64,000 nucleotides of DNA, from positions 4,191,357 to 4,255,356 of the forward strand of contig NZ_CP036343.1 of the NCBI RefSeq assembly GCF_007746795.1, in the 5' to 3' direction. Origin of the DNA: Gimesia algae. GTDB lineage: Bacteria; Planctomycetota; Planctomycetia; Planctomycetales; Planctomycetaceae. Below, piece after piece: positions 1 to 15,810 of this stretch; within the stretch, counting starts at the first letter, position 1; the number at the start of each line of letters is the position of its first letter. The translations under genes and the position numbers were made by a program. The notes below the pieces were generated by a model. The model had not been told where the DNA came from and ran no database searches. It worked only from the letters and a program-made list of their open reading frames with translations.

Positions 1-279
1 GAGAGAGCAACAATCCTGAATTTGAGTTGTTTAGTAATGTGTATTTTGAGGCTGAATCGTATATACCGGGATTTCCCATATGGGTTCCGTCTCTATACAG
101 ATACTCTTTTTCCACAGGCTGAGGCCCAAACTGGCAGTTGTACATCCCGCAGTACAATTTATGCAGCGAGTATCGCCGCCAGCCTAATGCTGCATCTATT
201 CACCCGTTGGCTTCGGGACATTCCTGTTGATTTGGATACCACGTTTAATCTTCTGGCAGGAGAATACACAGTCTACTGA
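1..279 (+). pseudogene. truncated 3' copy of the E1/ThiF-like gene
   Basis: From about residue [11 protein letters not shown] onward the translation closely matches the C-terminal third of the intact E1-like protein at 2890-3555, including the putative catalytic Cys in GSCTSR and the ending LLAGE. Upstream of that the match is lost: the nucleotides around 101-115 align with the intact gene only if about 8 bases are missing, which shifts the frame, and the sequence before it does not resemble an E1 adenylation domain. The GxGxxG nucleotide-binding part is absent from the window. The copy lies in inverted orientation relative to the intact gene and also carries the same downstream terminator. 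I read it as a dead duplication fragment. The gene might continue left of the window, but the frame break makes a functional enzyme unlikely. Confidence 0.75.
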
Positions 280-330
280 CGATTAAACCAAACAGACATA
301 TTTCAAAAGTGCAAACTGAAATGACAATCG

Positions 331-362
331 ATAGCGGGCCACCAGAAGGGGTGGCCCGCTAT
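331..362 (+). terminator. hairpin downstream of the E1 fragment
   Basis: A 13-bp perfect stem (starting ATAGCGGGCCACC) with a 6-base loop lies 50 bases after the stop of the E1 remnant. The same stem, with a different loop, follows the intact E1 gene at 2807-2838. This shows that the duplication carried the gene end together with its terminator. There is no long T-run, only TTTTT a few bases later. Confidence 0.6.
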
Positions 363-896
363 CCCAATTTTTAGCTATCAGAGAATCGATTGAATAGTTT
401 TCTAATTCAATGAATAGTTTCTGAAGCTATTTGTAGCAGCGTCTGTTCGACGAATGTCTGCAAAATCTTTTCTTGCTCAAGTCGAGCATTATTTTGCAGA
501 CAGTATTCAAAAGCTATTACTTCGCTCTCTGTCAAGTTGCAGGCATGGGATGCATTGTTCCATTCCTACTGACGATCTCAGTTTCATGGCTGAGCAGAGT
601 CTTTTGATCCATCATGATGTTCTGTACCTGTGGGAAGAAATTCCGCAATTGAGACAAAACTAGAAACCCGTCCACGTCTATGCCCCCAAGCTATTCGCTG
701 CGCGCTAAGGAGAGCCAAGTCCGCCTGAAGCCATTGATTCCCCCCTCAGCGACTCACCAATCGCCCCCACTTCGGTCACAATTCACACTCGCTAACTCAA
801 CAGCAACCGCCGTGCCGAATACTATTGACTGCGTCCTCTTTTGTTGTCCCCTGAGTTATTCGACTGCATGGATAGCCACTTCGGAACCTGACCTGT
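363..896. other. 534-base stretch without a convincing gene
   Basis: Short open frames exist on both strands, but none has a good ribosome binding site or recognisable product. An imperfect inverted repeat (453-466 with 491-508, core GTCTGCAAAAT) is visible. A minus-strand stretch of about 50 codons ending at 407 reads like protein but starts after a stop codon, so it may be a relic. Confidence 0.4.
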
Positions 897-1304
897 TTAT
901 ATGGCTTTGCTCAACTCTTTTATCAGGCGGTTGATCTCAGCCATGGATTTTCGGTGATGTTCAGCCAGATGCTTGTGAGCTTCACGCGTTTTCTGGTGCA
1001 GGACATCAAATTCCTGATGCTCGGTGATTAGTGTCTTATGCTCAGAGTTTTCGCCGGTCGCCTCGTGTCGTGCGATCTCGTGCTCGTGATGTTGGACGTG
1101 CATCTCATGCCGATTGATTTCCAGGTAGTGATCTTCCAGGACGACATCGTGCTGAAGGATGTAAGCCTGCGCTTGCACAAGTACTGCGAGGGCCTTTTTA
1201 TGCTCCGCTCTCCAAACGCCGATGTCGTCCAGCCAACTGGCATGTTCGCTCTGCGCCTGACGATGGTCCTGATGCATGGCGAGATGTTCTTGTTCGGTAC
1301 TCAT
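897..1304 (-). CDS. histidine-rich helical protein of unknown function
   Basis: A 135-residue, strongly charged protein that should be almost entirely alpha-helical, probably a coiled coil. It holds many histidines spaced along the helix (HVQHHEHEIARHEA, HLAEHHRKS). No signal peptide or membrane segment is seen. The ATG start is supported by GGGAG about 8 bases upstream. I do not recognise the family. The histidine pattern could bind metal, but that is inference. It stands alone between relic genes and is the only apparently intact gene left of 2.8 kb. Its neighbours in transcription direction are the enolase and lactate dehydrogenase relics, about 140 bases upstream, so it may once have belonged to their transcription unit. 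Confidence 0.7.
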   Translation of the reverse strand: MSTEQEHLAMHQDHRQAQSEHASWLDDIGVWRAEHKKALAVLVQAQAYILQHDVVLEDHYLEINRHEMHVQHHEHEIARHEATGENSEHKTLITEHQEFDVLHQKTREAHKHLAEHHRKSMAEINRLIKELSKAI

Positions 1305-1447
1305 TACTTTTCTCCCTGGGATTGAAAGTATCGTTCACGGTACATAACACAAACCAGCCGTCACACTGTACGACGGCGTGTAACATTGAGAGTGATTGTG
1401 TTGCAGTTTCGTTAACCCTTGTTTTCTATCACTACGATAAGATCACC

Positions 1448-1754
1448 TCACGACAGAAACGAGTCGATTCCAGTGCGAATCACGCTGACACTGTTCTGCA
1501 ATGTGGTCTGTTCTTGCTCGCTCAATTGTAACAGCAGCGCCGTGAAAATGCCATCACCGCCCAGCAGGTGCGGCAGCGACAGAGTGACGCCACCGAGGTG
1601 AGCATGTTCTGGACTCTGCGTACTTAACGGTCAGTATCACCCGATGGTCATTGACAATGGCTTTCACAATCCGTGCCAGTGCACAACCGATGTCGTAATA
1701 GGCGGTACCTTTGCCAGCGACCAGTCCGCTACCAACAATTCCGACCTTCATCAC
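1448..1754 (-). pseudogene. L-lactate/malate dehydrogenase relic (internal deletion plus frameshift)
   Basis: The first codons give the Rossmann start of LDH (KVGIVGSGLV). The reading then jumps directly to the C-terminal part GTAYYDIGCALARIVKAI, followed by ILTV, so roughly 200 codons are missing in frame. Near 1610-1625 the frame shifts. In the next frame the typical LDH end continues (LGGVTLSLPHLLGGDG, then LSEQEQ), stopping at 1448. A working enzyme would need about 310 residues, the catalytic His and the substrate-binding Arg, and these lie in the missing part. The start overlaps the enolase relic stop by ATGA, so the two were once translationally coupled. Confidence 0.8.
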
Positions 1755-2359
1755 TCAACTCCCCGTTTCACATCCTGACCTCGATCAAAAGTCGGAGGTC
1801 GTACGTAGGCTTGGCGCCCTGCGTACCGGGCTGCATCACCCAAGTGCTCCTCGATCCGTAACAACTGGTTGTATTTCTCCACTCGTTCACCGCGAGCCGG
1901 CGCGCCGGACTTGAGGTGGCCAGCATCCATCGCAACCGTCAGGTCCGCGATGAAGCTGTCCACTGTTTCGCCGCTACGATGAGAAACGAAAGTCCCCCAG
2001 CCCTGATTCTGAGCCATTCGCACAGCGGTGATCGTCTCAGTCACGGTGCCGATTTGATTGAGCTTGATGAGCACTGCGTTGGCAATGTTCTCGTCAATGC
2101 CGCGCGCGATCAGCGTTGGATTGGTGCAGAAAATGTCATCTCCAACCAATTCGATTCGATCGCCCAATGCGGCATTGAGTTGTTTCCATCCTGGCCAATC
2201 GTCCTGCCCCATGCCGTCTTCCAGCAAGACGAGTGGGTAGGTTGTGGACAGTTTTTCGTAATAAGTCACCATCTCTTCCGGCTCCAGATGGCGTTGTTCG
2301 CGACGCGAGTGATGAGTCTCCTCGGAAGATAACAGGGGCACAATTGAACTCCTTCCCAC
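1751..2359 (-). pseudogene. eno: enolase relic, C-terminal part only
   Basis: Residues from about 30 onward match the C-terminal 40-45% of enolase: EEMVTYYEKL, then the LEDGM and VGDDIFCTNP motifs with metal-binding acids, the catalytic Lys region AVLIKLNQIGT, and SHRSGET near the active-site loop, ending with the usual LRIEEHLGDAARYAG. Enolase is normally about 430 residues; here only about 180 are recognisable and the N-terminal domain is absent. The 5' end is therefore lost, and no start or promoter belonging to enolase is present. The remaining part has no internal stops, which suggests recent loss. It overlaps the LDH relic start by four bases. Confidence 0.85.
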
Positions 2360-2691
2360 TTTTATCCCTGAAAGCGGGCAGGTTCGTTTTTGTTGCCGTC
2401 AAGAAACCTATAAACAGCCTCCGGACCGAATACTTCGACCAGCCCCAAAGTTGACTCGCCGGGAATACTAGAATACCCAAGCTTTCAGAGCAAACAATTA
2501 AATTCATCCAATCAAGCCTGAATTCGAAAAAACGTATGAGTTCACGGATCGTGTACTCATACGTTTTATGGTTCGAAATACGGGACATCGCAAAGCTTAC
2601 GTCTTCAGTCAGCGGATTCCTTAGGAAATAATTCGAGAAACTCATAACGTAATTCAAAAGACCGTAAAGTCGTGCGGGAAGCAGTTACTCG
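2360..2691. other. gene-free junction upstream of the enolase relic
   Basis: No intact gene is visible. On the minus strand, about 2362-2480 encodes roughly 40 protein-like codons (GLVEVFGPEAVYRFLDG) ending in a stop at 2362 but lacking any start. It may be the tail of a lost gene that once preceded enolase. The family is not recognised. Confidence 0.35.
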
Positions 2692-2759
2692 GTTAGCTCC
2701 TTTCGACTCAAATCCCTCCTACGGTTTCGAAGACCGGTGCTCTATTCAGTTAAGCTAAC
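2692..2759 (-). other. degenerate tRNA-like sequence (anticodon TCG?)
   Basis: The minus strand carries a D-arm-like segment (GCTT AACTGAATA GAGC), directly followed by an anticodon-arm-like segment with loop CTTCGAA (anticodon TCG, arginine) and a T-loop-like TTTGAGTC. The outermost 7 bases at each end (GTTAGCT/AGCTAAC) are perfectly complementary. At 68 bases it is too short, the T-stem does not pair, and the D-arm overlaps the possible acceptor strand. It is probably a tRNA relic or the edge of a former attachment site rather than a working tRNA. Confidence 0.35.
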
Positions 2760-2806
2760 TCTGAAGCAGAACCTTGCATCCCTTCTCTGATAGCTAAAAA
2801 TAGGGT

Positions 2807-2838
2807 TAGCGGGCCACCACTGCAGTGGTGGCCCGCTA
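2807..2838 (-). terminator. perfect 32-base palindrome after the E1 gene
   Basis: A fully self-complementary 16-bp stem (starting TAGCGGGCCACC) lies about 50 bases downstream of the E1 stop, with TATTTTTAG following on the minus strand. It fits a transcription terminator for the ubiquitin-like operon. The same stem is found after the duplicated E1 fragment at 331-362. Confidence 0.65.
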
Positions 2839-2889
2839 GTCATTGTTATTTCTGTTTGCACTTCTTAAATATCTCTGTTAGTTTTATCT

Positions 2890-3555
2890 TCATTTTACGT
2901 AGGTTTCACCAGCAAGAAGATTGAGGGTCGTATCAAAGTCAACAGGAATATCTCGCAGCCAACGGGTAAATTGATGGATCATGATTCCGGCAGCGATACT
3001 CGCGGCATAGATTGTGCTTCGGGACGTACAGCTGCCAGTTTGGGCCTCAGCCTGTGGGAACAAAGTCTCTGAATACCGATAGAAGTCAGTTGAAGACGAA
3101 ACCGCCAGGACACGAATAATCTCTCCCAACATTCTTCCGTCCAACCAGAATTCACATTTATTGCTGACCGACCGCCAGATTGCGGACCGCGTGGAAATGG
3201 AATCAACACAACAGAAGACAGCCTCTCCAACTGGTAAAGTTGCACGATAACGATCCGAAACCCTAGTCACCTGGATCGAATCATCAAGTCGATGAATGGC
3301 ATTCGCTGTCGCTTCTACTTTAGACTGCCCTAGATCCTGTGCCCAATACCCTTGAGTCGTGATATTGGTCAATTCCACCGTGTCAAAGTCGATCAACTGA
3401 ATCTGCGGTGTCCCAATGGCCGCCAGTTGCAGGGCGACCTGACGACCAATGGCTCCCACTCCGATAACAGTCGCAGTCATCTGTGAAAGCCGTTCTGCCG
3501 AGATCAGATCACTCTGTCTCTGGAAACGATCCATAGTCATATTTAATGTATTCAA
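2890..3555 (-). CDS. E1-like ThiF-family adenylating enzyme
   Basis: This 221-residue protein should activate the C-terminus of a ubiquitin-like protein by adenylation and thioester transfer. Visible features: the Arg pair DRFQRQ (residues 9-14) that precedes the fold in E1/ThiF enzymes, the nucleotide-binding GVGAIG (32-37), the acidic [11 protein letters not shown] segment (54-64), and a candidate catalytic Cys176 in GSCTSR. It is shorter than MoeB/ThiF (about 250) and lacks the CxxC zinc pairs of ThiF. The probable start is TTG at 3555, overlapping the stop of the JAB gene in TTGA, with GGAGG six bases upstream; an in-frame ATG follows five codons later. It is the last gene of the operon, after the Ubl, E2-like and JAB genes, so its partner is probably the Ubl encoded at 5238-5456. 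Confidence 0.9.
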
Positions 3556-4178
3556 ATCTTTCCTCCTTTCAATTCGTTCTCAGCAAACAGCCAATCCTCT
3601 TCCCAGTCAAAATCTGCGGTCTGATCAAAAGCAGACTGGCGCAGGCGACGATTATGTTGCGGATGTACATGACTTAAATATTCATTCTCCCAACGCTCTG
3701 GATCACATCCGGCAAACGTTTGAGAGTAATCCCGTTTCACTGGGATCTCGAACTCAGCCTTGGGTCCCGCATTAAACCTTAGACGCGCATATGTTTGACC
3801 TGTCCGGGCCAGAATAAACATCACAGCCCAGTCGGATCGACCAAAGACACGATCAAACGTTTCTTCATCAGTTTGACTCGGCAAGGGGCAATCTCCCGGA
3901 TGCGTATGAATCCAGATCCGACCAAACTGTTCAGGACGGAGACCTACATCCACCTGATCGTCAAAGAAATTCGCGACTGCCTCATCGTCGAAAGCCACAT
4001 GAGCCAACGAGCAGGTCTGTTCCACAAGCTGCAGGTCCTGTACCAACAGCAGGTCGTCCTCTGAAGTAATCCCGAATCCACCGACTTCGGTTTCACCATA
4101 ATCACGCAGGTACAACAGTTTCGCCCAGGCAGTCGGGCTGAACCGTAGTCGCGGTAACCGGGTTTGCTGCTGAGGCAT
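3552..4178 (-). CDS. JAMM/JAB metallopeptidase (probable Ubl-processing or deconjugating enzyme)
   Basis: A JAB1/MPN-fold zinc peptidase. With the start at MPQQQ it has 208 residues. The complete JAMM signature is visible: Glu31 in EVGGFG, then HTHP (His91, His93), Ser101 and Asp104 in the spacing H-x-H-x7-S-x2-D. In related operons such enzymes trim the C-terminus of a ubiquitin-like protein or remove it from targets. That role would fit here because the neighbouring Ubl ends in GA rather than a bare glycine. The gene overlaps the 3' end of the E2-like gene by about 77 bases and ends inside the start of the E1 gene, a sign of tight coupling. Longer starts (MQKNSKK or further upstream) are possible, and no start has a strong ribosome binding site. 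Confidence 0.88.
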
Positions 4179-5154
4179 GGGTTTCCGGTAATTCTTTCTC
4201 TGTTTCTTCGAGTTCTTCTGCATCACAATCAGAGCACCTTTCATTTTCAAGTAAACAACGTTGACAGCAGTCGGCATTACACTGCATGCATTGTTTCAGA
4301 CAGGACGAACAGCAGTTGCTGTGACAGCTGTCACAGTGCGACAAACACTCATGGCAAAACGGACAATCGCAGTCCGAACAATCCCGGGCACACTCCGTGC
4401 AGAGTGCGATTTCACAGTTTTCACAGCGTGTCTGTTCGTTGGCTGCAATCACATCAGCGCACTCGGTACATTCGACACTATGCCAGTCAGATAATTCCAC
4501 GTAAGGGCTGCCGGGGTTATAAGTTCGCAACAAGCTGACCACCATCGTGAAAAAATCAAACAGACGTCCCTGTTCCAGCGACCGGCGTATTGCCAGACGT
4601 CCGTCCCCTTCGCAGACGACTTCTGATTGAACGTGCGGATGCGTGACACAGTCATTGACGAACGCCGGATTTGGGTCCGTGGCGATCACCCGATAAGGGG
4701 ATGAAACATCCATTTTTAGATTTCCATATTTGAGACAAATCTCAAATGGCCCTAGATAGACGGCCTCCAGTTCAATCGGCTCTGTGACAACAGAAATGGT
4801 CTGCGCACGTAGATCCAGCTTCAGTTCACCGAATTCTTCTTCTAAAGCCAGCAATTCTGCATAGAGTTCCCTGACGGAAGAAATCTGCTGCTGTGATGAA
4901 TCAGACATCAATTCCGCATGTAGTGCTGTCAGTTGTTGAATTAACTGGGCAAGACCAGTTTTCAGATCTCGTTCCAGCTTTGATGCAGCCAAATCCCAAT
5001 CCCTGTGTTGTGCCCGCTGACGTTTCCGAATCAAGCGATCACAGTGCCACCAGTCTTCGAAAGGCAGTTTTAATTGTGTCGCAGAGTCTTCTGATACCAG
5101 ACGCTGATAAATTTGACTGGCAGTCCGCCAGAGTCGTTTTCGTGGAAGTTGCAT
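4102..5154 (-). CDS. E2-like (UBC-fold) protein fused to a Cys-rich, possibly RING-like zinc tail
   Basis: Starting at ATG 5154 (SD AGAGGAG), the protein has 350 residues. Residues 1-110 are helical and charged, with a probable coiled coil (55-110). Residues about 118-224 show an E2-like pattern: beta strands, then HPHV (172-175), a Cys nine residues after the His (Cys181, where E2 enzymes carry the thioester Cys), and a C-terminal helix with [11 protein letters not shown] resembling the LL-x-x-PNP segment of E2s. Residues 229-310 contain 23 cysteines, mostly CxxC pairs, enough for several zinc sites, as in tandem RING/treble-clef or B-box-like modules. A Pro/Thr-rich tail follows. The Ubl gene lies directly upstream and JAB and E1 directly downstream. 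The E2 assignment is pattern-based. The RING reading is weaker; the tail could be another zinc-binding fold. Confidence 0.75.
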
Positions 5155-5237
5155 TGTCTCCTCTTTCAAAAAATGGATTCCAGAACAGGCTGCCGGGTAT
5201 TAAACCCCGACAGCCTGTGGAAATATAAAAGCCAGGG

Positions 5238-5456
5238 TCACGCCCCCTCGATTTTCGTGGGCGTTATGGAAATCCGGTCCCCATCCTGTAACCGCTGGTT
5301 TGGGGGACATGGCTGGCGATTCACGCGAATCAAGTAATCGCGTGCTTCTGCATCCCCCATCTTCTGTTCGAATAGTTGTGCCACCGTGGTTTCTGCGGAG
5401 ACCTCGATATAATCAGCGAAACCACCGCCATCATTATTGATCAATAAAAGCTTCAT
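5238..5456 (-). CDS. ubiquitin-like beta-grasp protein
   Basis: A 72-residue protein with the beta-grasp pattern of ThiS/MoaD/ubiquitin: an opening strand MKLLLINN, a second strand YIEVSAETT leading into the helix VAQLFEQKM, then YLIRVNRQP, the turn [12 protein letters not shown] typical of ThiS/MoaD (LxDGDxVxxxP) and a short tail ending KIEGA. It should be the protein activated by the E1 and carried by the E2-like protein encoded just downstream. Mature ubiquitin-like proteins normally end in Gly; here one Ala follows the Gly, so removal by the JAB peptidase, or use of an unusual C-terminus, must be considered. The start is supported by GGAAGG eight bases upstream. It resembles the small Ubl (protein C) of PRTRC-type cassettes in size and in company with ThiF. 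Confidence 0.85.
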
Positions 5457-5508
5457 AGAAGTCCTTCCAGTTTCTGTTTAAATTTCGTTAAAAACACACA
5501 TTGTTTGT

Positions 5509-5700
5509 TTATGTGAGAGGCTGCCGTTTGCGACGTCGTTTCCTGCGGCGTGTATTACCTTTCACACCCCGTCGTCCCTTGATGCGACCAGCGTGCAACG
5601 TTTGCCGCAGGACTGACTGCGCATTCGATCGTGCACTGAGGTCCTCTGAGACAGTTCGACAGCATTCGCACGGTTGAAGATCAGGCCACCACCGGTTCAT
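5509..5700 (-). CDS. small Arg-rich protein, unknown
   Basis: A 63-residue frame beginning inside the end of the preceding gene (20-base overlap). It has a Trp/Cys-containing N-terminus (NRWWPDLQPCECCR) and a very basic tail ending RRRKRRRKRQPLT, so nucleic-acid binding or a high pI is likely. The family is not recognised. Its position directly before the Ubl gene and the overlapping arrangement favour a real gene. The overlapping start and absence of a clear ribosome binding site keep confidence moderate. Confidence 0.45.
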   Translation of the reverse strand: MNRWWPDLQPCECCRTVSEDLSARSNAQSVLRQTLHAGRIKGRRGVKGNTRRRKRRRKRQPLT

Positions 5701-5896
5701 GGTGCGCCCCTTGTCGCTGGGAATTCAGTCGATTGGTTTCCAGTTCATCCCAATCGATCACATAGGGCCCCGATTCTTCTGCTACCGGATCAATGAGCTC
5801 ATCGGGCTCCGCCAGTAAAAATCCCAGACGTTTCACTGTTGACATGCTTTCGCCGGTTGCCAGGGCAACGGCCCGATTTAAGTCTGCCTGTTTCAT
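5681..5896 (-). CDS. small conserved-looking protein, possible HTH-like N-terminus
   Basis: A 71-residue protein. The first 30 residues (KQADLNRAVALATGES, then STVKRLGFLL) read like the helix-turn-helix of a small DNA-binding or adaptor protein: an acidic first helix, a turn with TGES, then a basic second helix. The C-terminus is acidic and unstructured. The ATG start has GGAG eight bases upstream. It is the first gene after the hairpin at 5929-5974 and therefore heads the Ubl half of the locus. I recall similar short frames on mobile elements of environmental bacteria, but no function is known to me. A regulatory role is only a guess from position. Confidence 0.65.
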   Translation of the reverse strand: MKQADLNRAVALATGESMSTVKRLGFLLAEPDELIDPVAEESGPYVIDWDELETNRLNSQRQGAHHEPVVA

Positions 5897-5928
5897 CAGT
5901 TGTCTCCTTCGATATGAAAATGTTTAAA

Positions 5929-5974
5929 CAAAAAAAGCCCCGGCCCTGCAGAGACGATTCTGCAAGACCGGGGC
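5929..5974 (-). terminator. strong intrinsic terminator/attenuator inside the locus
   Basis: On the minus strand a GC-rich hairpin (outer stem GCCCCGG/CCGGGGC, inner stem TGCAGA/TCTGCA) runs directly into TTTTTTT. It sits between the stop of the 81-residue gene and the start of the 71-residue gene, only about 33 bases before the latter. Either transcription of the Ubl half depends on readthrough, or a promoter overlaps the hairpin. Confidence 0.75.
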
Positions 5975-5996
5975 GTACTGTTGTGAAATTCAATTA

Positions 5997-6242
5997 TCAG
6001 GGGCTGTGGGAGAGCCAATGCTGCTCCAGCCAGTCCGTTTCTGATTTCAGGGCAGCACTCCGCTGTGTGAAAGGTCCCAGTTGCGGCCCATCCACGGGGG
6101 ACAGATCCACGAGCCACTGACCTGCTACATTCGGTTCGACATAAGAGCCACGTGAAATGGTCAGTCGACCGATGGTTGCCAGATCAATGGCTTCCGAGTA
6201 AACGCAGTGCACTGTCCCCTGTGGCGAGATCAAAATTTTCAT
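5997..6242 (-). CDS. conserved small protein, unknown function
   Basis: An 81-residue soluble protein starting MKILISPQG with a likely beta-rich N-terminal half (VHCVYSEAIDL, LTISRGSYVEP) and a helical end rich in Trp (WLEQHWLSHSP). The segment GQWLVDLSPVDGPQLGPF reads like a conserved core. No catalytic motif is evident. It is coupled to the 313-residue gene, ending that gene's transcription unit before the terminator at 5929-5974. The gene order (AAA+ ATPase, 313-residue protein, this protein) suggests a common complex; its biochemical role is unknown. Confidence 0.7.
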   Translation of the reverse strand: MKILISPQGTVHCVYSEAIDLATIGRLTISRGSYVEPNVAGQWLVDLSPVDGPQLGPFTQRSAALKSETDWLEQHWLSHSP

Positions 6243-6251
6243 CTGGCATCC

Positions 6252-7193
6252 TTATTTTGGAGTTCGGATAATTTGTCGCCGCGGCCGGTCGATCAACAGA
6301 CCATCCAGGGCTGCCTGGACCCCCGATAACTCAGATGCGACCTGCTGACGGAGTTCACCGCGCTTGCGCAATTCCTGGGGCTGGATGCCCTGCACGATCC
6401 CCTGACACTGCGCTACCAGAGTATCCAGCTGTTCGTTGGAACGCACATTCAGGGAGCGGAACCGTTCAAAGAACTCGTGCAGGTTACCGATGGCGGAATC
6501 ACGGAAAACTTTGGGCCGGCCATCGGCCTGACCACTCAAACGGTCCGTCAGATGCGATACCAACTGTGACAGCTCTCCCAGAAAGGCGTCTTCGGCCAGC
6601 CTGACCGCTTCCTCAAACCGCGACTGCACGCGCTGGCATTCCTGCTCATACAGTTCCGGATTGAGCTGTCTTAAATAATCCGGCGGTTCGACGCTGGGAA
6701 AATCCCAGGAAACCTCGAACAGACCAGTCAGCGTCATGGGATAATCATCGTCGTTGAAGAGACTCCCCAGGCGCTCCCGGGCTGCTGACTTCAGGGACAA
6801 GTATTGTTCATCCAGTTGTGAAACCGCTTCGTTAAGCTCAACCGTAAACTGGTTCATCTGCTCCTGAAAAGCAGTCAAGGCATCCTGCCGCAATAACCGT
6901 ATCCCGGGTTCTGGAAACGGCAGGCTGATTGAAGTCCAGTATGATCGCACCCGCTGCCGGACCGCATTTACGGCCCGGAACCGGGGATGCCCCGTATCCA
7001 GCAGTTTTTTTCCGGCACTCAGGAACGTCCCTTCCGCCCCAAACGATTCGGCAGCCTGAGTCTTCTGGTCGCGTGTCAAGGATTTGCGTGTGCCAAACCA
7101 TTCAAAACTGATGCGTGTGGCGCACATCGTTGATCGTAGCCGATCGATGGGATCGGTGCGGGTATTTACTTCATCAATAGCAGTCATGGTCAT
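6252..7193 (-). CDS. conserved coiled-coil protein next to the AAA+ ATPase, unknown function
   Basis: A 313-residue soluble protein, mostly alpha-helical with long charged heptad-like stretches (about residues 110-230 and 270-300) and no signal peptide. Near the N-terminus it has EWFGTRKSL followed by basic and acidic helices; in the middle LTGLFEVSWDFPSVEPPDYL is the most distinctive segment. A good ribosome binding site (AAGGAG) precedes the first ATG, and a second ATG follows two codons later. It lies 25 bases downstream of the AAA+ gene. Proteins of this size often sit beside MoxR- or Ycf46-type ATPases as partners or substrates. The assignment to any named family is not safe from sequence reading alone. 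Confidence 0.75.
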   Translation of the reverse strand: MTMTAIDEVNTRTDPIDRLRSTMCATRISFEWFGTRKSLTRDQKTQAAESFGAEGTFLSAGKKLLDTGHPRFRAVNAVRQRVRSYWTSISLPFPEPGIRLLRQDALTAFQEQMNQFTVELNEAVSQLDEQYLSLKSAARERLGSLFNDDDYPMTLTGLFEVSWDFPSVEPPDYLRQLNPELYEQECQRVQSRFEEAVRLAEDAFLGELSQLVSHLTDRLSGQADGRPKVFRDSAIGNLHEFFERFRSLNVRSNEQLDTLVAQCQGIVQGIQPQELRKRGELRQQVASELSGVQAALDGLLIDRPRRQIIRTPK

Positions 7194-7218
7194 ATTAGCT
7201 CCTTAAATAGAGTGTGGT

Positions 7219-8715
7219 TTAGTTTCTGTGAGGATCGCGTGAGAGATTCCGGCGTGAACGGGAACCGGTACGCTCGTCATTGCTAAATACTCCTGGCTGT
7301 TCTGCTGACAGACAGCGTTTACTGGCCCAGCGTCGTAAACGGGCCACCGATTCGGCGGCGGTAATGGCCACGGGAACCACGTTTTCTGCAGCCTTGATTA
7401 AAGGAACGTCGAGCAGCGCTGCCAGTCGACAGCAAGCCCGGATTTCTGATCCGGTCCAGTGCCGGTCGTCCGGCAAGCGTTGATCTGGTGAAAGCCCAAA
7501 CAGATCACGATACAAACTCCAGATGGCCTGCTTCTGGTCATCGCCCGGTAAATCCAGAAAGAACAAAGCGTCAAAGCGTTCGGCCCGTACAAACTCCGGC
7601 GGCAGTTTGGAAATGTCGTTCGCGGTACAGACTACGAACACATCAGAAGCATGATCGTTCAGCCAGCTGAGTAACGTTCCCAGCATGCGTGTGGAAACGC
7701 CGCTATCAGACTGACCGGAAGAAGCTGCACCACCCAAGCCTTTTTCGACTTCATCAATGAACAGGACGGCGGGCTGCATCGCATCGACGATGCGGAGTGC
7801 TCGTCGAGTTCGCTCTTCGGTTTGACCGACCAGCGCGCCCATTAAAGCTCCGACGTCGAGTGTCAGGGTGGGACGCCCGGTCTCCCTGCCAAGTGCTTTG
7901 GCAAACGCACTTTTCCCGGTTCCGGGAACTCCCAGCAGCAAGACGCCTCTGGGACGAACTGGTGTCTCATCCTGGGGGCGGAATCGAAGAGCTTGCAGGC
8001 AAAAAGCTTTGAGTGCTTCCAAGCCTCCCAGGCCAGCGAATGACTCCGATCCCTCGTGCAGCGATAGCAGACCGCTTTTCAGCAGTGTCTGGGATTTCAG
8101 TTCCAGTACGACCGAAGCTTCGATGCGCTGGTGTCGCACTAGCGACAGACTGAAGGCGCCTTCTGCTTCATAACGTGTCAGGCCCGAGGCAGCGTCCAGA
8201 ACACGTTCGAGTTCTGGTTCCTCCGGCAATTCTCCCGTTTCCGTAGCGATACTGCGGGCAATCTCTAACAGTTGACTTCGATCGGGAAGATCATGTTCCA
8301 AACAGACAAACAGTTTTTCTAACTCCGTGGGGATCTGGACCAGGCTGGAAAGAATAACAATAAACGTCCGTGCCTGTTTCCCCAGATTAATCTGTTGTGT
8401 CAGAGCCTGAACGATTTCAGGGGAATTGATGAACCGATGGAAATTTTTGAGGACCAGCAGCGTGGGGCGGTCCGGATCGTCCTGACTACTCAGACTGTGG
8501 ATGGCCGCCAGGGGATCGGGGGGTGAAGTGTCGTTGCCCTCAGCGAATTCCGTCCCCTGCATACCCCGGTCAATATCCCAGGAGAATAACCGCCAGTCTT
8601 CCGTGTGGCAGAGACGGGCCATCTCCAGCAACGCCTCATCGTGTTCATGACTCTGAATCCAGATCCCGGTAAAGCAGGCGCGTACGTTCTCCGCAAGACG
8701 TTCGGATAGTAACAT
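7219..8715 (-). CDS. Ycf46-like AAA+ ATPase
   Basis: A 498-residue protein counted from ATG 8715; a longer open frame upstream is excluded because it overlaps the TOPRIM gene. Residues 1-220 form a degenerate N-terminal AAA-like domain without Walker motifs (LLVLKNFHRFI is typical of the non-hydrolysing domain in Ycf46). The C-terminal AAA+ module has Walker A GVPGTGKS (262-269), Walker B VLFIDEVEK (318-326), a sensor segment VVCTANDISKLPPEF and arginine-finger-like RAERFD. This two-domain layout matches Ycf46, found in chloroplasts and cyanobacteria, where it co-occurs with Ycf35 (DUF1257). The present locus encodes a DUF1257 protein and DUF2997 upstream. It likely remodels or recruits client proteins, and in this context may feed targets to the Ubl pathway (inference). 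Confidence 0.85.
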   Translation of the reverse strand: MLLSERLAENVRACFTGIWIQSHEHDEALLEMARLCHTEDWRLFSWDIDRGMQGTEFAEGNDTSPPDPLAAIHSLSSQDDPDRPTLLVLKNFHRFINSPEIVQALTQQINLGKQARTFIVILSSLVQIPTELEKLFVCLEHDLPDRSQLLEIARSIATETGELPEEPELERVLDAASGLTRYEAEGAFSLSLVRHQRIEASVVLELKSQTLLKSGLLSLHEGSESFAGLGGLEALKAFCLQALRFRPQDETPVRPRGVLLLGVPGTGKSAFAKALGRETGRPTLTLDVGALMGALVGQTEERTRRALRIVDAMQPAVLFIDEVEKGLGGAASSGQSDSGVSTRMLGTLLSWLNDHASDVFVVCTANDISKLPPEFVRAERFDALFFLDLPGDDQKQAIWSLYRDLFGLSPDQRLPDDRHWTGSEIRACCRLAALLDVPLIKAAENVVPVAITAAESVARLRRWASKRCLSAEQPGVFSNDERTGSRSRRNLSRDPHRN

Positions 8716-8761
8716 AGATGTTTCCTTGATGGTTTGAAGAAATAGAAGGTGTGAAGTGTGC

Positions 8762-9368
8762 TTAAGTGGTTTTTGCCAGTTGGCCGATCGACTCCAGCCA
8801 GGAAATGATTTCCCCGTCCGGATCGCGTTCCTGCAGCAGAGGGACCGACATCTGTTCAACGGCGCTGGTATTGAGCCAGTGCTTGGCCCGAATAGCAAGC
8901 CGGATGCGTGGTCGACGATCGAGCAGTTCCCAACGATAGTCGTCATTTCCGACTGTCAAAGACCCGCTGTGCCACTTCCGACGCCACGCAATCATGGTCC
9001 CCGAAATCGGGACTAATATTGGCAAAGGCCTGAATGGCACGGGGATGCAAGTAGTTCTCCAGGCTCCGTTTCTGTGTTAGCACAGCACGGCATCGAATTC
9101 GTTGATTGATCTGAGCAACCATCTCTTCCCGCTGTTCCGACTCAGGCGACGTTTCCCCGTCATAGATATGAAATTCTGGCAATTGAAGCGGGGCCAGCCG
9201 CCTGACCCAGGCCCGGGGATGGCCGCCGATGGGCAGAAAGACGAGTTCCCCTTTGCGTTCCATCGCGGCCAGGTCAGGGAGTGCGGGCTGATCGGCATGG
9301 AGCAGCGTGGAAATGCGTCTCAGGAATTCGATGTCGTGTGTTCCTTCAACGACTACCAGCACACGCAC
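8762..9368 (-). CDS. TOPRIM-domain protein, split by a +1 frameshift
   Basis: The first 141 codons (GTG start) encode a TOPRIM-like domain: VVVEGTHDIEFL with Glu8, and the acidic FHIYDGE (Asp70, Glu72), followed by KRSLENYLHP. The frame then stops in AAA TGA C at 8943. In the +1 frame the protein continues smoothly (DDYRWELLDRRPRIRLAIRA, then KHWLNTSAVEQM and GEIISWLESIGQLAKTT) to a stop at 8762, which matches the usual C-terminus of about 200-residue relatives as I recall them. The total length is 3n+1. The break may be an inactivating indel, a sequencing error, or programmed +1 shifting as in prfB, since the TGA-C context is the same. TOPRIM proteins of this type are predicted nucleic-acid cleaving or nucleotidyl enzymes. 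Confidence 0.65.
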
Positions 9369-9427
9369 TGGCTGGGGATCTTCGGGAATTGGGTCCGGTA
9401 AGACCTGAATATGTTGATTTGCGAAAA

Positions 9428-9622
9428 CTAATTCTCCTGTGTCAGATGATTGGGTTGGTGTTGGACGGTTTGATGATATTCAGCCGTCAGTTGTTCGGAT
9501 GCGGTCGCGCCCAGCGCAGTTTCCAAAAACCGGCTGGCGTGCTTGCACCGGGAGCCGGTAAAGCCGCGGGTTTCGATGCGGGACTGACCGTCGGCTGAAA
9601 AAATAATGTCTATTGTTTTCAA
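9428..9622 (-). CDS. DUF2997 family protein
   Basis: A 64-residue protein beginning MKTIDIIFSADGQSRIETRG, followed by FTGSRCKHASRFLETALG. This short beta-hairpin plus helix with a conserved Cys after TGS is the DUF2997 signature. The start overlaps the stop of the DUF1257 gene by four bases (ATGA), so the two are translationally coupled. DUF2997 and DUF1257 genes are commonly neighbours and are often accompanied by Ycf46-type ATPases. The molecular function is not known. Confidence 0.85.
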   Translation of the reverse strand: MKTIDIIFSADGQSRIETRGFTGSRCKHASRFLETALGATASEQLTAEYHQTVQHQPNHLTQEN

Positions 9623-9987
9623 TGGTCTGCTCCGATCTGAATGGTGAGTTTGATGGAACCGTCACTGAGCTGGTTTTCCAGGACGGAATGTCCCTTCCGG
9701 CGTGCTTCCATTCGGCATTTTTCCACGCCATAAAATTGTAGTAGTCGATTGAGCTGTGCCGGTTCACCCCAACGACCTTGAAAGTTGTCGTATCTGACCT
9801 GGCCCTGGTCGACATCGAAAACGACGGGGTATCGCCAGTCCGGTAGCCGAACACAGTAGCCAGTGGCTTCACCGCTAAACAGGGGGACGGTTTCGTGAAC
9901 AGGCTCTCCCAGTTCGAGTCGGTGACAGGCCAGGCGCAGCGCCTCGGCATCGCGGACTTCCGTTGTTATTGTGACAATATGTGACAT
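9619..9987 (-). CDS. DUF1257 (Ycf35-like) protein
   Basis: A 122-residue protein with the DUF1257 pattern throughout: MSHIVTITTEVRDAEAL at the start, the central GEATGYCVRLPDWRYPVVFD, then GQVRYDNFQGRWGEP and the C-terminal VEKCRMEARRKGHSVLEN, ending SIKLTIQI. Its chloroplast relative Ycf35 is conserved but uncharacterised. Coupled to DUF2997 downstream. Together with the Ycf46-like ATPase it reconstitutes a bacterial counterpart of the Ycf35/Ycf46 pair. Cytoplasmic; no membrane segments. Confidence 0.88.
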   Translation of the reverse strand: MSHIVTITTEVRDAEALRLACHRLELGEPVHETVPLFSGEATGYCVRLPDWRYPVVFDVDQGQVRYDNFQGRWGEPAQLNRLLQFYGVEKCRMEARRKGHSVLENQLSDGSIKLTIQIGADH

Positions 9988-9988
9988 T

Positions 9989-10558
9989 TCAGTTTTCCCT
10001 TTCTGTAGATGGGTTGGCAGGAGATTGTGGTAAATCCGTCAATCGGCGTTTGTCTGGTTTTGGTGTGACAGGTGGCATCAGGCGTGGTTCCGATGAGACC
10101 AGATCATCCAGCAGTAATTCTGCGATCTCATTCTCGTCCACAGGTTCTACCTTCTGTTGCAGCAACAGCCAGCAGATCAGCAGGGGAAGCAGGCTGACGA
10201 CCACCATGGTCACCCTGGTGATCGCAGCTACAACGATCGGATCTCGGTTTCGGCCGTCGGCAATTTCGCGACGTTCTGCTTCCAGCTGATCGCGCTGGTG
10301 TCCGATCTCGCTCCGTTCGGTCTGAATCGCACGCTGCAAGGCGACCATCTCCCGTCTGGCTTGGGCATCCGCCTCCACTAGTTCCCGTGAACCCGAGGCG
10401 ACTTCCTGCTGGAGATCCGACATCCGGCGATTCTGGTCCGCCTGGCGTTCCAGTTGTTGCGTGGCCAGATCAGCCACGCGACTGTTTTCGTCTGAATTAC
10501 AACTGGCTCCGGTCAGCAGGATCAGAATTAGTGTGATTCGAAGCGTCTGTTTTTCCAT
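9989..10558 (-). CDS. lipoprotein with coiled coil and an internal membrane segment
   Basis: A 189-residue protein. Residues 1-20 form a lipoprotein signal (LILILLTGASC, Cys20 as lipidation site). Residues 25-105 are a long charged coiled coil. About residues 106-135 form a hydrophobic membrane segment (VVSLLPLLICWLLL), and an acidic then Pro/Arg-rich cytoplasmic-like tail follows. Such a layout suggests a membrane anchor or scaffold. GGAGG precedes the ATG closely. It lies one base upstream of the DUF1257 gene and overlaps the end of the preceding small membrane protein. The family is not recognised. Confidence 0.7.
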   Translation of the reverse strand: MEKQTLRITLILILLTGASCNSDENSRVADLATQQLERQADQNRRMSDLQQEVASGSRELVEADAQARREMVALQRAIQTERSEIGHQRDQLEAERREIADGRNRDPIVVAAITRVTMVVVSLLPLLICWLLLQQKVEPVDENEIAELLLDDLVSSEPRLMPPVTPKPDKRRLTDLPQSPANPSTEREN

Positions 10559-10688
10559 GTGCCCTCCAGCGATGAATCAGGTGTCTGAGAATGCCCTGTA
10601 GCGCCAGTCGCAGCCGTCGTTCTTTGACAAAAGCGATGACTGCCAGCAACAGCGCGACAGAGACAAACGTTAAAACAATAATTTCCAA
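10497..10688 (-). CDS. small single-pass membrane protein
   Basis: A 63-residue protein with one N-terminal transmembrane helix (IIVLTFVSVALLLAVIAFV), a basic stretch KERRLRL and a polar tail, so the N-terminus is probably outside and the tail in the cytoplasm. The start is TTG at 10688, with AAAGGAG six bases upstream. It overlaps the lipoprotein gene by about 60 bases. As the first gene of the minus-strand locus it may help place the complex at the membrane; that is inference. Confidence 0.6.
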   Translation of the reverse strand: MEIIVLTFVSVALLLAVIAFVKERRLRLALQGILRHLIHRWRAHGKTDASNHTNSDPADRSQL

Positions 10689-10727
10689 GCAATGCTCCTT
10701 TCTGATGAGAGGTTAAGTGAAAAGCAA

Positions 10728-10760
10728 AACGCCCCGCATTCCTAAAAAATGCAAGGCGTT
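10728..10760. terminator. hairpin in the leader of the minus-strand locus
   Basis: Imperfect stem AACGCC..GCATT / AATGC..GGCGTT with T-rich tails on both strands (TTTTT on plus, TTTTGCTTTT on minus). It lies 40 bases before the first gene of the minus-strand locus and could end transcription from the 52-residue gene or act as an attenuator. Confidence 0.5.
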
Positions 10761-10824
10761 TTTAAATGACGACGGTCTTGAATCGGGGATTGATTTTGAT
10801 ACAGAATAGATAATCCGTGCCCTT

Positions 10825-10985
10825 ATTTATTATGACACGTTTCGGGCTAAAATTCAGGTAATGGGACACGCTCGATGGTGATTGAAGAATCACAGCGAAT
10901 GCCTGATACTTAATTTTCCAGCTTGTGATATTCCCTGGCTTCTATTCCTTCATGTATCATGACACGTTTTTCGCCAATATTTAGG
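10825..10985. repeat. pair of approximately 37-bp imperfect direct repeats
   Basis: Two related segments (10825-10860 and 10948-10985) share the core ATGACACGTTT, followed at similar distance by AATTCAGGT or TATTTAGGT. They lie about 123 bases apart in the non-coding region ahead of the minus-strand locus. They may be binding sites for a regulator or iteron-like elements. Confidence 0.45.
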
Positions 10986-11139
10986 TTTTACCGTAATCTC
11001 GTTTCGTGTCGTCTGGTTCGTACTTTTTGACTATTGATTTGGCAATCAGTTGCAGCAGTCGATGAATGGAGCTTCCCGGTAGGACTGGTCCAGGTTGATT
11101 AGCTTGACTCTTTTTTGATTTAGATTGTCTGGTCTTCAA
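10981..11139 (-). CDS. small basic protein, unknown
   Basis: A 52-residue protein with TTG start at 11139, chosen because AAAGGAG lies 5 bases upstream; an in-frame ATG further upstream falls beyond that ribosome binding site. The N-terminus is Lys/Ser-rich, followed by one amphipathic helix (SIHRLLQLIAKSIVKKY) and a charged tail. The family is unknown. It follows the terminator of the serine recombinase gene and precedes the repeat region, so it is probably expressed from its own promoter or by readthrough. Confidence 0.5.
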   Translation of the reverse strand: MKTRQSKSKKSQANQPGPVLPGSSIHRLLQLIAKSIVKKYEPDDTKRDYGKT

Positions 11140-11164
11140 AGCAGCTCCTTTCAGATGGCGCATT

Positions 11165-11188
11165 AAAAAAACCCGGCATATGCCGGGG
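11165..11188 (-). terminator. intrinsic terminator of the serine recombinase gene
   Basis: Perfect palindrome CCCGGCATATGCCGGG (11172-11187), followed on the minus strand by seven T residues, about 35 bases after the recombinase stop codon. A classic rho-independent terminator. Confidence 0.9.
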
Positions 11189-11219
11189 TCAGAGATTGGG
11201 TTAGAGTGACATTTCATTT

Positions 11220-13184
11220 TCAGAGCGGAGGCCGCTGATAACCGGCCTTCACCTGGAACGAATACTTCTTATTCTTGTGCCTGCGAAGTTTTTTATAGTC
11301 GTCAGGCGGTTCTTTCAGAAACACATACGGACTCGAAAGCCCCTCTTCCTGCATCTGCCGATGCAGCTTCAGGGCGTAATAGACCGCTGTCTGGGTGGGT
11401 TTACATTCCAGCTGACGAGCGATTTCCCGTTGTTCCATACCGACAGTAGCCAGTCTGATGGCTTCTGGACGAATCAACTCGCGTTGAGGAGGTTCAAAGA
11501 GATCCAGGGTCAATTCCCGGGTCAGTAACTGCTGTAACTCTGGAGACGCCGCCGCATCGGGAATGCTCCCGGCTAGATTGAGGCGGATCTTAGCACGAGG
11601 CAGCAGATGACCGCCATCAATGAGGCGTACCTGGTAGACATAGATTTCAGGGACTAGCTCCCTGATTAAATCACCGAACTCATGCGAGTGAATATCAACA
11701 TCTTCGAGGTGATGTTGCAATATTCCCTTGAGCTCTAATGTGGATTTCGGAAGATTAAGTTGCCGGGATCTCGCGTGCTCCAATGCCCTCCGATCAAGTA
11801 ATAACTGTTTTTCTCGATTCTTTAAATCAGAGAGCATCTCAGAGAAAAAATCACTATTAAAGTCATCCGTCTCTCTGATCAATTTTTTGAGTTTATCACG
11901 TTCATGTGCAATTTCTTCCTCTTCCCGATTCAATTGATTTTCACGGGCAAGGAGCTTTTCAGGACCACCAGCTTGCGCTTGCTGCACAATTTCTCGAAAC
12001 TGAGGATCAATTTCATCCAGAGTCGTAAGGCTGTCCAGAATCACCTCCAATAGTTTCTGTGCAGCTTTAGGCCCATTAAACCCAATGGAGTTCCAGCAGT
12101 GCCACTCGCGGGAATTGGAGCACATCAGGTTATCCGTCATGCCGTTGCCTCCCCACACGTAATGACAACCGCAATAGAAGCATGTCGCATGCTGACCAAA
12201 GGCCCGGGTTCGTTTCTTGGGAACTCGAGATCTTGAATCAACGCCGTTCTGGTTCTGCTTACGTTTAAAATGAGCATTTTTTTCAGCTATCGCTTCGAGA
12301 ACGGGATCAATATCATCAGGAGAGAAGAAGGCCAGGTGAGGTTCTTCCCGATAACAGGGGCCATTCGGATTGGGGACCGAGATTCTCCTTCCAGTTTCAT
12401 GATGTTTGATGGAATGCGTTTTTCCACGTTGGGGGAACCCCTTAAGGATCGGGTTACGGTAGAAACGTAATACCATTCGTCCGTCCCATTTATCCTTTTT
12501 GCAATTGGGGCCTGGTGAAAATCCATTTTCATTGAAGTATTCTGCAACGGCTGCGCCATTGAGTGTCCGTTTGAGGATTTGCAGACCTTCGTGTATGAAT
12601 ACAGCTGCATCTTCATCCTTGACCCAGTCTGAATATGACTTGGCGTTGTCAGGTTTGATATATCCAGCGGTAAGACCAGGAGTGGCACCTCCATACTTTT
12701 TAAACCGGTTCATCAGTTTATATTTCAATCGACGTGATGTATGCGTATTGTGTTTCAGATGTTCTTTACATGCATCAAGTACATCGTCTTCCCAATTTTC
12801 ATTGTTAGTGTCAATAAAATCGTTGGGTGAAATCACTCTGGTTCCATGGTCGACTGCAATGCCACAAAGCCGGTGAGCTGCTGGACCACGTACCAGGCGA
12901 CCAAGATCTTCGACGATTAATAAATCCAACTCATCTGATTTGAGCCAGTTTTTAATCTCAAGAAGTTCTGGACGGTCAAGTCGTTCTCCTTTTCCCTTGG
13001 TTGTGATCTTCCTGAACTCAATCTCTCCATCAAACATTTCACGGGCAACCTGTTTGCCATGGTCTACTTGATCGTCCAGGCTGATTTCTTTCTGGTTTGC
13101 ACAACCGGAAATACGCCCAGGAATTCCAACGATCAAGGTATGACCGTTCCGCGGTACAAGTTCAATTTCTTCTCTATAACTCAT
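11220..13184 (-). CDS. large serine recombinase
   Basis: A 654-residue site-specific recombinase. The N-terminal resolvase-like domain (about 1-150) has the catalytic Ser in GRISG, the downstream SLDDQ, and LLIVEDLGRLVRG, which matches the DLSRLSRD-type motif with the active-site Arg residues. A recombinase domain follows (about 150-290, with GATPGLTAGY and RFYRNPILKG), then a zinc-ribbon-like segment (CFYCGCHYVWGG, later CSNSREWHC), a long coiled coil (about 400-480) and a C-terminal helix-turn-helix (GMEQREIARQLECKPTQTAV). The size and order are those of large serine integrases. It may mobilise this element or be an independent integration event; the neighbouring tyrosine recombinase is the better candidate for the tRNA-adjacent attachment site. 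GGAG lies upstream of the ATG. Confidence 0.88.
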   Translation of the reverse strand: MSYREEIELVPRNGHTLIVGIPGRISGCANQKEISLDDQVDHGKQVAREMFDGEIEFRKITTKGKGERLDRPELLEIKNWLKSDELDLLIVEDLGRLVRGPAAHRLCGIAVDHGTRVISPNDFIDTNNENWEDDVLDACKEHLKHNTHTSRRLKYKLMNRFKKYGGATPGLTAGYIKPDNAKSYSDWVKDEDAAVFIHEGLQILKRTLNGAAVAEYFNENGFSPGPNCKKDKWDGRMVLRFYRNPILKGFPQRGKTHSIKHHETGRRISVPNPNGPCYREEPHLAFFSPDDIDPVLEAIAEKNAHFKRKQNQNGVDSRSRVPKKRTRAFGQHATCFYCGCHYVWGGNGMTDNLMCSNSREWHCWNSIGFNGPKAAQKLLEVILDSLTTLDEIDPQFREIVQQAQAGGPEKLLARENQLNREEEEIAHERDKLKKLIRETDDFNSDFFSEMLSDLKNREKQLLLDRRALEHARSRQLNLPKSTLELKGILQHHLEDVDIHSHEFGDLIRELVPEIYVYQVRLIDGGHLLPRAKIRLNLAGSIPDAAASPELQQLLTRELTLDLFEPPQRELIRPEAIRLATVGMEQREIARQLECKPTQTAVYYALKLHRQMQEEGLSSPYVFLKEPPDDYKKLRRHKNKKYSFQVKAGYQRPPL

Positions 13185-13256
13185 TATTTATCACTCCGTT
13201 TTAAATGAATGTTTTTTGTTTTTAAATGTGTTTAAAGCAAGTCAGTATGTTTAGAG

Positions 13257-14627: not shown

Positions 14628-14638
14628 CAAAACCTCCC

Positions 14639-14666
14639 GTGCACAATGTGTGCACCAACTGTGCAC
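14639..14666. repeat. three GTGCAC sites at exact 11-bp spacing before the integrase gene
   Basis: GTGCAC occurs at 14639, 14650 and 14661, each one helical turn from the next, just upstream of the integrase ribosome binding site. The motif is palindromic, so the array presents three equal faces to a protein. Likely an operator, or arm sites for the integrase or an excisionase. Confidence 0.6.
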
Positions 14667-14697
14667 CAGGAGGTTTATTATGTCGCGCAAAAAATAA

Positions 14698-14727
14698 CGC
14701 TAAGTTATTGAATTCAATAACTTAGCG
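14698..14727. repeat. perfect 30-bp palindrome between integrase and tRNA-Ser
   Basis: A perfect inverted repeat of 15 bp per arm (arm begins CGCTAAGTTATTGAA), AT-rich in the centre. It starts 21 bases beyond the 3' end of the tRNA and could be the tRNA terminator, or a core/arm site of the attachment region. Confidence 0.65.
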
Positions 14728-14746
14728 CGTTTGGTCAGTTTGATAA

Positions 14747-14832
<86 letters not shown>

Positions 14833-15789: not shown

Positions 15790-15810
15790 TCCCTTCCTAC
15801 CCGCTGATGA

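Follow-up and report, generated by a model that had tools for sequence, protein, structure and literature searches.

Operons that combine genes for an E1, an E2, a JAB peptidase, and a ubiquitin-like protein (Ubl) were predicted in bacteria by Iyer, Burroughs, and Aravind in 2006, among them a type called 6d (PMC1779556). BilABCD comprises a Ubl, an E2, an E1, and a JAMM peptidase that is reported to expose the C-terminal Gly of the Ubl (PMC11354881), CBASS Cap2/Cap3 uses E1, E2, and JAB-type chemistry (PMC12355090), and an operon of Caldiarchaeum subterraneum encodes ubiquitin, E1, E2, an Rpn11-related peptidase, and a separate RING E3 (PMC4197634, where the description of similar operons from Actinobacteria, Planctomycetes, and Acidobacteria is attributed to Burroughs 2011). 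We analysed a 64,000-nucleotide stretch of the Gimesia algae genome (contig NZ_CP036343.1; hereafter the window), in which positions 2890-5456 of the minus strand encode a Ubl, an E2-like protein with a C-terminal Cys-rich domain, a JAMM/JAB metallopeptidase, and an E1. We consider it probable that the cassette constitutes a complete ubiquitin-like conjugation pathway, including the steps proposed below, and that it resides on a small integrative element linked to tRNA-Ser genes.

Type 6d is the nearest described relative, with a likewise separate small Ubl that has a conserved C-terminal Gly, an E2-like protein, a JAB, an E1, and a sporadic distribution. However, in the type 6d E2 the His normally found upstream of the Cys is missing and one is present downstream, whereas in the cassette E2 a His (H177) precedes the Cys in 82 of 82 homologues. 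The cassette E2 also carries a fused Cys-rich array, and genes for an AAA ATPase, a DUF1257-like protein, and the helical protein p313 often accompany it. The terms "Planctomyc", "cysteine-rich", "TOPRIM", and "AAA" are absent from the main text of PMC1779556. BilA has two Ubl domains, in contrast to the single 72-amino acid (aa) Ubl here; BilD has an inactive and an active adenylation domain plus a Cys domain, in contrast to an E1 of 221 aa with one ThiF stretch; and BilB has a CEHH motif, whereas no His after the E2 active-site Cys (C186) is conserved in at least 85% of the 82 homologues (PMC11354881). The PRTRC ThiF model TIGR03736 gives the E1 38.5 bits and does not reach its cut-off of 144.75. 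Cap2 is an E1-E2 fusion that acts on a CD-NTase (PMC12355090), unlike the separate E1, E2, and beta-grasp Ubl of the cassette; the Cap3 model NF050170 scores 20.7 bits against a cut-off of 200, and a PADLOC scan of ten cassette proteins gave no CD-NTase model (for the E1, among the best 25 of 32 families). Judged by these defining features, the cassette belongs to none of PRTRC, Bil, type 6d, and Cap2/Cap3, and a kinship with the PRTRC or Bil operons, which an earlier, sequence-only reading of this DNA had named, is not supported. The Caldiarchaeum operon has an Rpn11-related peptidase, and the best solved matches of the JAMM protein here are Rpn11-like but weak (E 0.006). The E3 of the Caldiarchaeum operon is a separate RING protein (PMC4197634), whereas here the E2 itself bears the Cys-rich fingers; in Pfam scans, none of the other cassette proteins examined matched a RING or zinc-finger family. 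In the open-licence literature searched, represented mostly by listings, we found no description of the cassette or its phage form, nor of the E2-zinc fusion, the AAA/p313/DUF1257 partners, the tRNA-Ser elements, or a phage reservoir; Burroughs 2011 may list a relative.

The four core proteins

All four genes named by the sequence-only reading are present and consecutive, and the motifs that it described are intact. It had called the genes overlapping, which holds for E1/JAMM and JAMM/E2, whereas Ubl and E2 are separated by 68-83 bp. Conservation was counted over non-redundant sets (82 of 108 E2, 71 of 101 JAMM, 74 of 101 E1, and 70 of 112 Ubl sequences) that are mostly bacterial with a few rows from the viral loci L151-L154. 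Together with the predicted E2 fold, the conserved active sites support the proposal of a protein-tagging gene set.

The Ubl (5238-5456; this and the other genes described for the window are on the minus strand) has 72 aa and matches ThiS in Pfam with 25.3 bits (cut-off 22.5). Its Gly71 (5246-5244) is invariant in 70 of 70 homologues. The next residue is Ala in 66 of the 70, and the tail beyond the Gly has 1-49 residues; in the window the protein ends in KIEG-A, i.e., Gly-Ala. Because the Gly is usually followed by Ala and a short tail, the Ubl is probably matured by the JAMM protein cutting after Gly71.

The JAMM gene (3552-4277) encodes 241 aa counted from the first ATG; conservation starts near residue 44, and a later ATG at 4178 is therefore a possible start. 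The residues E64, H124, H126, S134, and D137 are each found in 71 of 71 homologues. The match to Prok-JAB (19.3 bits) is below the Pfam cut-off of 25, and the best solved matches are Rpn11-like but weak (E 0.0059). The E1 (2890-3555) is a ThiF-type adenylating enzyme (PF00899, 83.3 bits against a cut-off of 28.1) whose best match among solved proteins is MoeB. R13, the glycines of the GxGxxG motif (G32, G34, and G37), D56, N64, Q68, K79, D118, and C176 (3030-3028) are each conserved in 74 of 74 homologues.

The E2-like protein (4102-5169) has 355 aa if read from a TTG or 350 aa from the ATG at 5154, and the active-site Cys181 of the sequence-only reading, counted from the ATG, is C186 in the TTG numbering used here. 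H177 (4641-4639), C186 (4614-4612), and G188 are each present in all 82 homologues. The motif HPHV-x5-C can be likened to HPN...C, the motif of E2s, and HPN replaces HPH in two of 31 viral members. The window protein has no Pfam family match even at E ≤ 10, and 81 homologues searched at E ≤ 0.1 gave no Prok-E2 model among the best 25 of 32 families. The sequence-only reading was to be considered refuted if the protein lacked a UBC fold, and the structure prediction gave no such refutation: the AlphaFold model, built from an alignment of 81 rows (L071 omitted), has a mean predicted local distance difference test score (pLDDT) of 90.4, and 49 of the 50 best Foldseek rows from the PDB are titled as E2s (probability up to 0.97). 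VIA-align gave Z-scores of 7.3 for the TSG101 UEV domain and 6.8 for UBE2S, with E2-like chains ranging from 6.1 to 7.3. Its rows span residues 7-223 only, many of them matching only the N-terminal helices; the zinc array is in no row, which excludes nothing.

The Cys-rich region (4225-4470, C234-C315) follows the UBC domain and contains ten CxxC pairs, the inner ones at a spacing of 15 residues. Eleven of these Cys are present in 82 of 82 homologues and the remaining ones in 72-81. Weak sequence leads (E 0.007-0.05) include the Midline-1 B-box, FYVE, and TRIM21 chains, and one of the 81 members matches zf-B_box in Pfam. The region may form a treble-clef-like zinc array that is a candidate built-in E3. 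The coding frames of E2 and JAMM overlap recurrently, with E2 continuing for 46 nucleotides beyond the JAMM codon at which conservation begins in 41 of 71 loci (4102-4148 in the window). Recoding of stop codons was considered for homologues listed with one TAG and discarded, because each TAG is a normal terminator immediately preceding the stretch shared with JAMM.

The four-gene core is complete in 30 of 30 relatives' loci, in 52 of 56 mostly planctomycete contigs, and in 30 of 31 viral loci, counting those that contain a Ubl followed by 4 kb or more of downstream DNA. Compared with a second copy in the same genome (L032), the ratios of nonsynonymous to synonymous substitution rates (dN/dS) are 0.16 for E1 (a rough value, because dS exceeds 1), 0.12 for JAMM, 0.26 for E2, and 0.05 for Ubl, i.e., the core is under purifying selection. 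Both the completeness and these ratios of 0.05-0.26 argue that the grouping of the genes is beyond chance. The contigs are the best 80 of 129 relatives; five have titles without a planctomycete name (Emcibacter, Chloroflexota, "bacterium", Actinomycetes, and SAR324), and the remaining titles are those of Planctomycetota. A Ubl from L071, titled as an Emcibacter metagenome-assembled genome, is 90% identical to the window Ubl, and L071 is possibly a mis-binned planctomycete contig. Core and partner counts omit L034, which is 99.98% identical to L033 and represents the same locus, and L168, L165, and L171, which are duplicates or near-duplicates; viral residue counts omit L034, L165, L168, L170, and L171.

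The larger unit and its mobile surroundings

The four core genes are the 3' part of a larger unit, as DNA common to the cassette copies spans about 2783-10860 (approximately 8 kb). The four genes that the sequence-only reading described as a complete cassette of about 2.6 kb are thus only a portion of the unit. In order of transcription, the unit encodes p189, p122, a TOPRIM-like protein, the AAA ATPase, p313, p81, p71, Ubl, E2, JAMM, and E1. The AAA ATPase (7219-8715, 498 aa) has one PF00004 stretch, and its best solved matches are Cdc48/VCP-like (E 7.8e-33). A match to the phage family phrog_8638 (E 1e-81) covers most of the protein. Against the NCBIfam CDC48 model it scores 69.5 bits, far under the cut-off of 802.65, and with a single AAA stretch it is therefore called Cdc48-like rather than Cdc48. 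The neighbouring p313 (6252-7193) is defined by its model, its co-occurrence with the AAA gene, and its dN/dS (0.03-0.05): the model is mostly helical (pLDDT 81), Foldseek gave no row at E ≤ 0.001, and DUF3150 is touched by one of 28 members (E 0.0046). The only Pfam match of p122 (9619-9987) is DUF1257, with an E of 0.013 that is below the cut-off. The small proteins p71 (5681-5896, upstream of Ubl) and p81 (5997-6242) are conserved but have no family, and p189 (9989-10558), a conserved protein of the unit, has no convincing one. The TOPRIM-like gene (8762-9368), named by eye and without a family match, is frameshifted in the window copy, where it is split over two frames; it is open across 201 aa in L032, L036, L037, L039, and L040. 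A candidate gene p156 (9480-9950) was rejected, as the positions of changes favour the p122 frame across most of the stretch. Relative to L032, dN/dS is 0.05 for p313, 0.05 for AAA, and 0.06 for p122, and ten genes in two comparisons range from 0.03 to 0.26.

Where enough upstream DNA is available, p71 is present in 28 of 28 relatives' loci and 32 of 43 contigs. Of the 28 relatives' loci that extend 5.5 kb or more upstream, 21 have both AAA and p313 and none has just one of the two; both are present in 22 of 43 contigs (one alone in four) and in three of 25 viral loci (one alone in one). Since the core is found without them in many loci, AAA and p313 form a linked optional module.

Upstream of the unit lie genes for a serine recombinase (11220-13184; Resolvase, 24.7 against 23.3 bits) and a tyrosine integrase (13257-14690; Phage_integrase, 57.1 against 27.1 bits), followed by an intact tRNA-Ser (TGA) gene (14747-14832), which is the presumed integration site. 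It was called by ARAGORN and is the sole Rfam match in window positions 1-16000. Integrase homologues are found beside 13 of 32 loci, including one match in a partly masked frame, serine recombinase homologues also beside 13, and one or both beside 19. ARAGORN identified six tRNAs in 33 flanking loci, all of them tRNA-Ser with three anticodons, to which the window adds a fourth. In closed genomes, a tRNA-Ser-like match lies within 20 kb of seven of 18 copies, compared with 0.35 expected (none of 20,000 random placements reached this). The E2 gene has matches in 17 of 59 genomes including its own, with two copies here and six each in the congeners G001 and G013, but zero in eight of 17 genomes of the genus, some of which are incomplete; the Ubl model matches nine of 294 genomes in a sample of the phylum, again including its own. 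The adjoining recombinases, the proximity of tRNA-Ser genes, the multiple copies per genome, and the patchy distribution agree with the mobile carrier proposed from the sequence alone. Among 72,556 plasmid records, the E2 protein had no match.

Several smaller features accompany these loci. On the plus strand of the window, 94-385 is an inverted fragment that is 80% identical to 2783-3075 (the 3' end of the E1 gene and downstream DNA), and it is a remnant of another cassette copy. Perfect palindromes of 32 bp (2807-2838, beyond the E1) and 30 bp (14698-14727, between the integrase and tRNA-Ser) are present, as are a C-terminal enolase fragment (1751-2359, minus strand) and, by eye, a tRNA-like stretch at about 2680-2745 at which ARAGORN made no call. 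Also by eye, L047 has a small helix-turn-helix/excisionase-like frame before the integrase (13593-13859), and an Xre-like regulator frame lies inside the cassette in L047 (6441-6728) and L064 (6295-6582).

Relatives on viral contigs

The same core occurs in phages. The Ubl alignment matched four viral contigs and the JAMM alignment 32 loci, two of which are on the same contigs. Conservation extends to these sequences: H177 and C186 of the E2 are present in 31 of 31 and the JAMM site in 32 of 32, the E1 residues in 31 of 31 except R13 (30 of 31, with one gap), and Gly71 of the Ubl in 29 of 31, where Ala is next in 20. Nine of ten tested proteins from viral contigs match phage families (a protein from L182 had no match). 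Neighbouring genes encode a terminase large subunit (L152, L153, and L184), DNA polymerase (L156 and L164), a UvsX-like recombinase (L164), a helicase and a DnaB-like protein (L166), and a primase/helicase (L157). Phage genes thus support seven contigs, and the remaining ones are viral by their IMG/VR label only.

Some viral loci are more elaborate. A Ubl gene with three profile matches is found in L153, L154, L166, and L168; in L153 and L154 it is one gene with three Ubl-like units, the last two of which end in KVEGA (L153) or KVQGA (L154). Both these tandem endings and the Gly-Ala tails would be accounted for if the JAMM protein cleaves behind the Gly. A second E1 is encoded in L153, L154, L166, L168, L180, and L185, with the two E1 genes placed around an SbcC-like frame. 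In L153 (3288-15016), inspection by eye places E2-like and JAMM-like genes before the second E1 and an SbcC-like gene after it; the match of this JAMM-like gene to Prok-JAB is below the cut-off.

A tree of 116 combined JAMM and E1 sequences (L031, L165, L171, incomplete genes, and near-identical sequences omitted) separates 25 of the 32 viral sequences from all 84 bacterial and the other seven viral ones, with a split support of 1.0 as printed after re-rooting. The viral sequences form the more divergent side and are basal under midpoint rooting; because of this rooting, we infer rather than read off the direction of transfer between phages and elements.

Neither the E2 protein nor the JAMM of L153 had a match among 50,697 annotated phages, of which ten were matched by the E1. 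Diverged E1s occur in Xanthomonas phage PhiXhv-12 (L189), the Crassvirales member cr85_1 (L190), and bajarodcaudo virus 1 (L191), where they are annotated as thiamine biosynthesis or E1 family proteins; they match the E1 profile of the window cassette family with E 1e-30 to 1e-34. By eye, E2-like frames adjoin these E1s among replication genes, and JAMM-like frames are present in L190 and L191. The E2, JAMM, Ubl, AAA, and p313 profiles of the window family have no match in the three regions at E ≤ 1. These are probably further Ubl systems.

Proposed pathway and possible roles

The cassette is a genuine and apparently functional Ubl-conjugation system on mobile DNA, for which we propose the following steps. 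The JAMM protein would trim the Ubl precursor after Gly71. The ThiF-type E1, as a homodimer, would adenylate Gly71 with ATP and capture the Ubl on C176, from which it would pass to C186 of the UBC-fold E2. The fused zinc array could then act as a built-in E3 or as a module that binds the substrate or the Ubl, and the Ubl would be joined to lysines of the target proteins; with such an E3 or adaptor fused to the E2, a separate E3 would be unnecessary. Where the cassette is complete, tagged proteins would be bound and unfolded or extracted by the Cdc48-like AAA ATPase together with p313, and the JAMM protein would recycle the tag. The benefit would go to the element or phage rather than to the general metabolism of the host.

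Several results weigh against this explanation. The best E2 row in Foldseek has an E of only 0.016, with zero rows at E ≤ 0.001, and the E2-like rows in VIA-align are intermixed with helical rows that are unrelated and whose Z is as high or higher; the highest-scoring E2-like row, the TSG101 UEV, is a non-catalytic relative of E2s. The basis of the E3-like reading of the zinc array is weak matches, and the Ubl profile found no related structure by sequence among solved structures. In our alignment of the E1 family, the position of Arg73 of MoeB, named as an active-site residue (PMC12355090), appears to be Thr in 55, Ser in nine, and Pro in four of 74 sequences. As to the integrative element, the search for an attachment repeat of the tRNA-Ser 3' end gave a single 14-bp match 45 kb away, and six loci contain no exact repeats of at least 13 bp. 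Within 12 kb, a tRNA-Ser-like match accompanies two copies compared with 0.21 expected, which is weak (P 0.018), and the P values for tRNA-Ser are too small because orthologous copies in G001 and G013 were counted as independent. Lastly, AAA, p313, and the DUF1257-like gene are absent from many core loci, and the unfolding step is therefore optional or wrong.

Should experiments confirm the chemistry, a compact ubiquitin pathway would be present in phages and mobile elements, comprising an E2 that resembles those of eukaryotes and includes a candidate E3, a peptidase of Rpn11-like type, and in some cases a Cdc48-like ATPase. A pathway best known from eukaryotes may thus have a version that belongs to bacterial viruses and mobile elements. 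This would bear on the origin of ubiquitin systems, provide a small protein set for in vitro reconstitution, and make testable the question of why a bacterial virus tags proteins; the presence of the core in phages, in more diverse form, adds to the interest of the cassette.

As to its role, the one we find easiest to credit, while stopping short of calling it probable, is that of a helper of the phage or element, whose tag would mark replication, packaging, or host proteins, with planctomycete elements carrying a captured branch. The nearly universal completeness of the core in viral loci with enough DNA (30 of 31), the terminase, DNA polymerase, UvsX-like, helicase, and DnaB-like neighbours, and the more divergent viral side of the tree (25 of 32 against 84 bacterial and seven viral sequences) are consistent with it. 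However, the midpoint rooting leaves the direction a matter of interpretation, a gene neighbourhood differs from a function, and, of the 25 viral loci that extend far enough upstream, a single one showed the p189, DUF1257, and TOPRIM-like partners. More tentatively, phages and their integrative relatives could keep a private, large, and diverse ubiquitin pathway, in which the precursor would resemble polyubiquitin, the E1 would be followed by an E2 with its own zinc E3, the deconjugase would be Rpn11-like, and a subset would add a Cdc48-like unfoldase. Some phages would run two such systems in parallel, and planctomycete mobile elements would have captured one branch.

By analogy with what is reported for Bil, the cassette might instead be antiphage defence cargo of the element that tags proteins of incoming phages. 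We regard this as rather unlikely, although patchy, multi-copy island cargo adjoining integrases would fit it and the chemistry resembles that of Bil (PMC11354881). PADLOC matches only JAB, E1-E2 (CBASS), and AAA-domain profiles, via shared domains, and the core is itself phage-borne; its presence inside phage genomes makes defence of the host only one among several possible roles. Much less credible is a ThiS/MoaD-type function in sulfur transfer or small-molecule biosynthesis without protein tagging: the E1 matches ThiF and has MoeB as its best solved match, and the Ubl matches ThiS, but a predicted UBC-fold E2 with an invariant Cys and a JAMM protein with a complete metal site always accompany them, and the family scans found no sulfurtransferase in the cassette. 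That the cassette is decayed and non-functional is the least plausible of all, since the frameshifted TOPRIM-like gene and the inverted E1 fragment close by stand against the intact motifs of the remaining genes, whose dN/dS values are 0.03-0.26, and against a second copy in the same genome in which all these genes are open.

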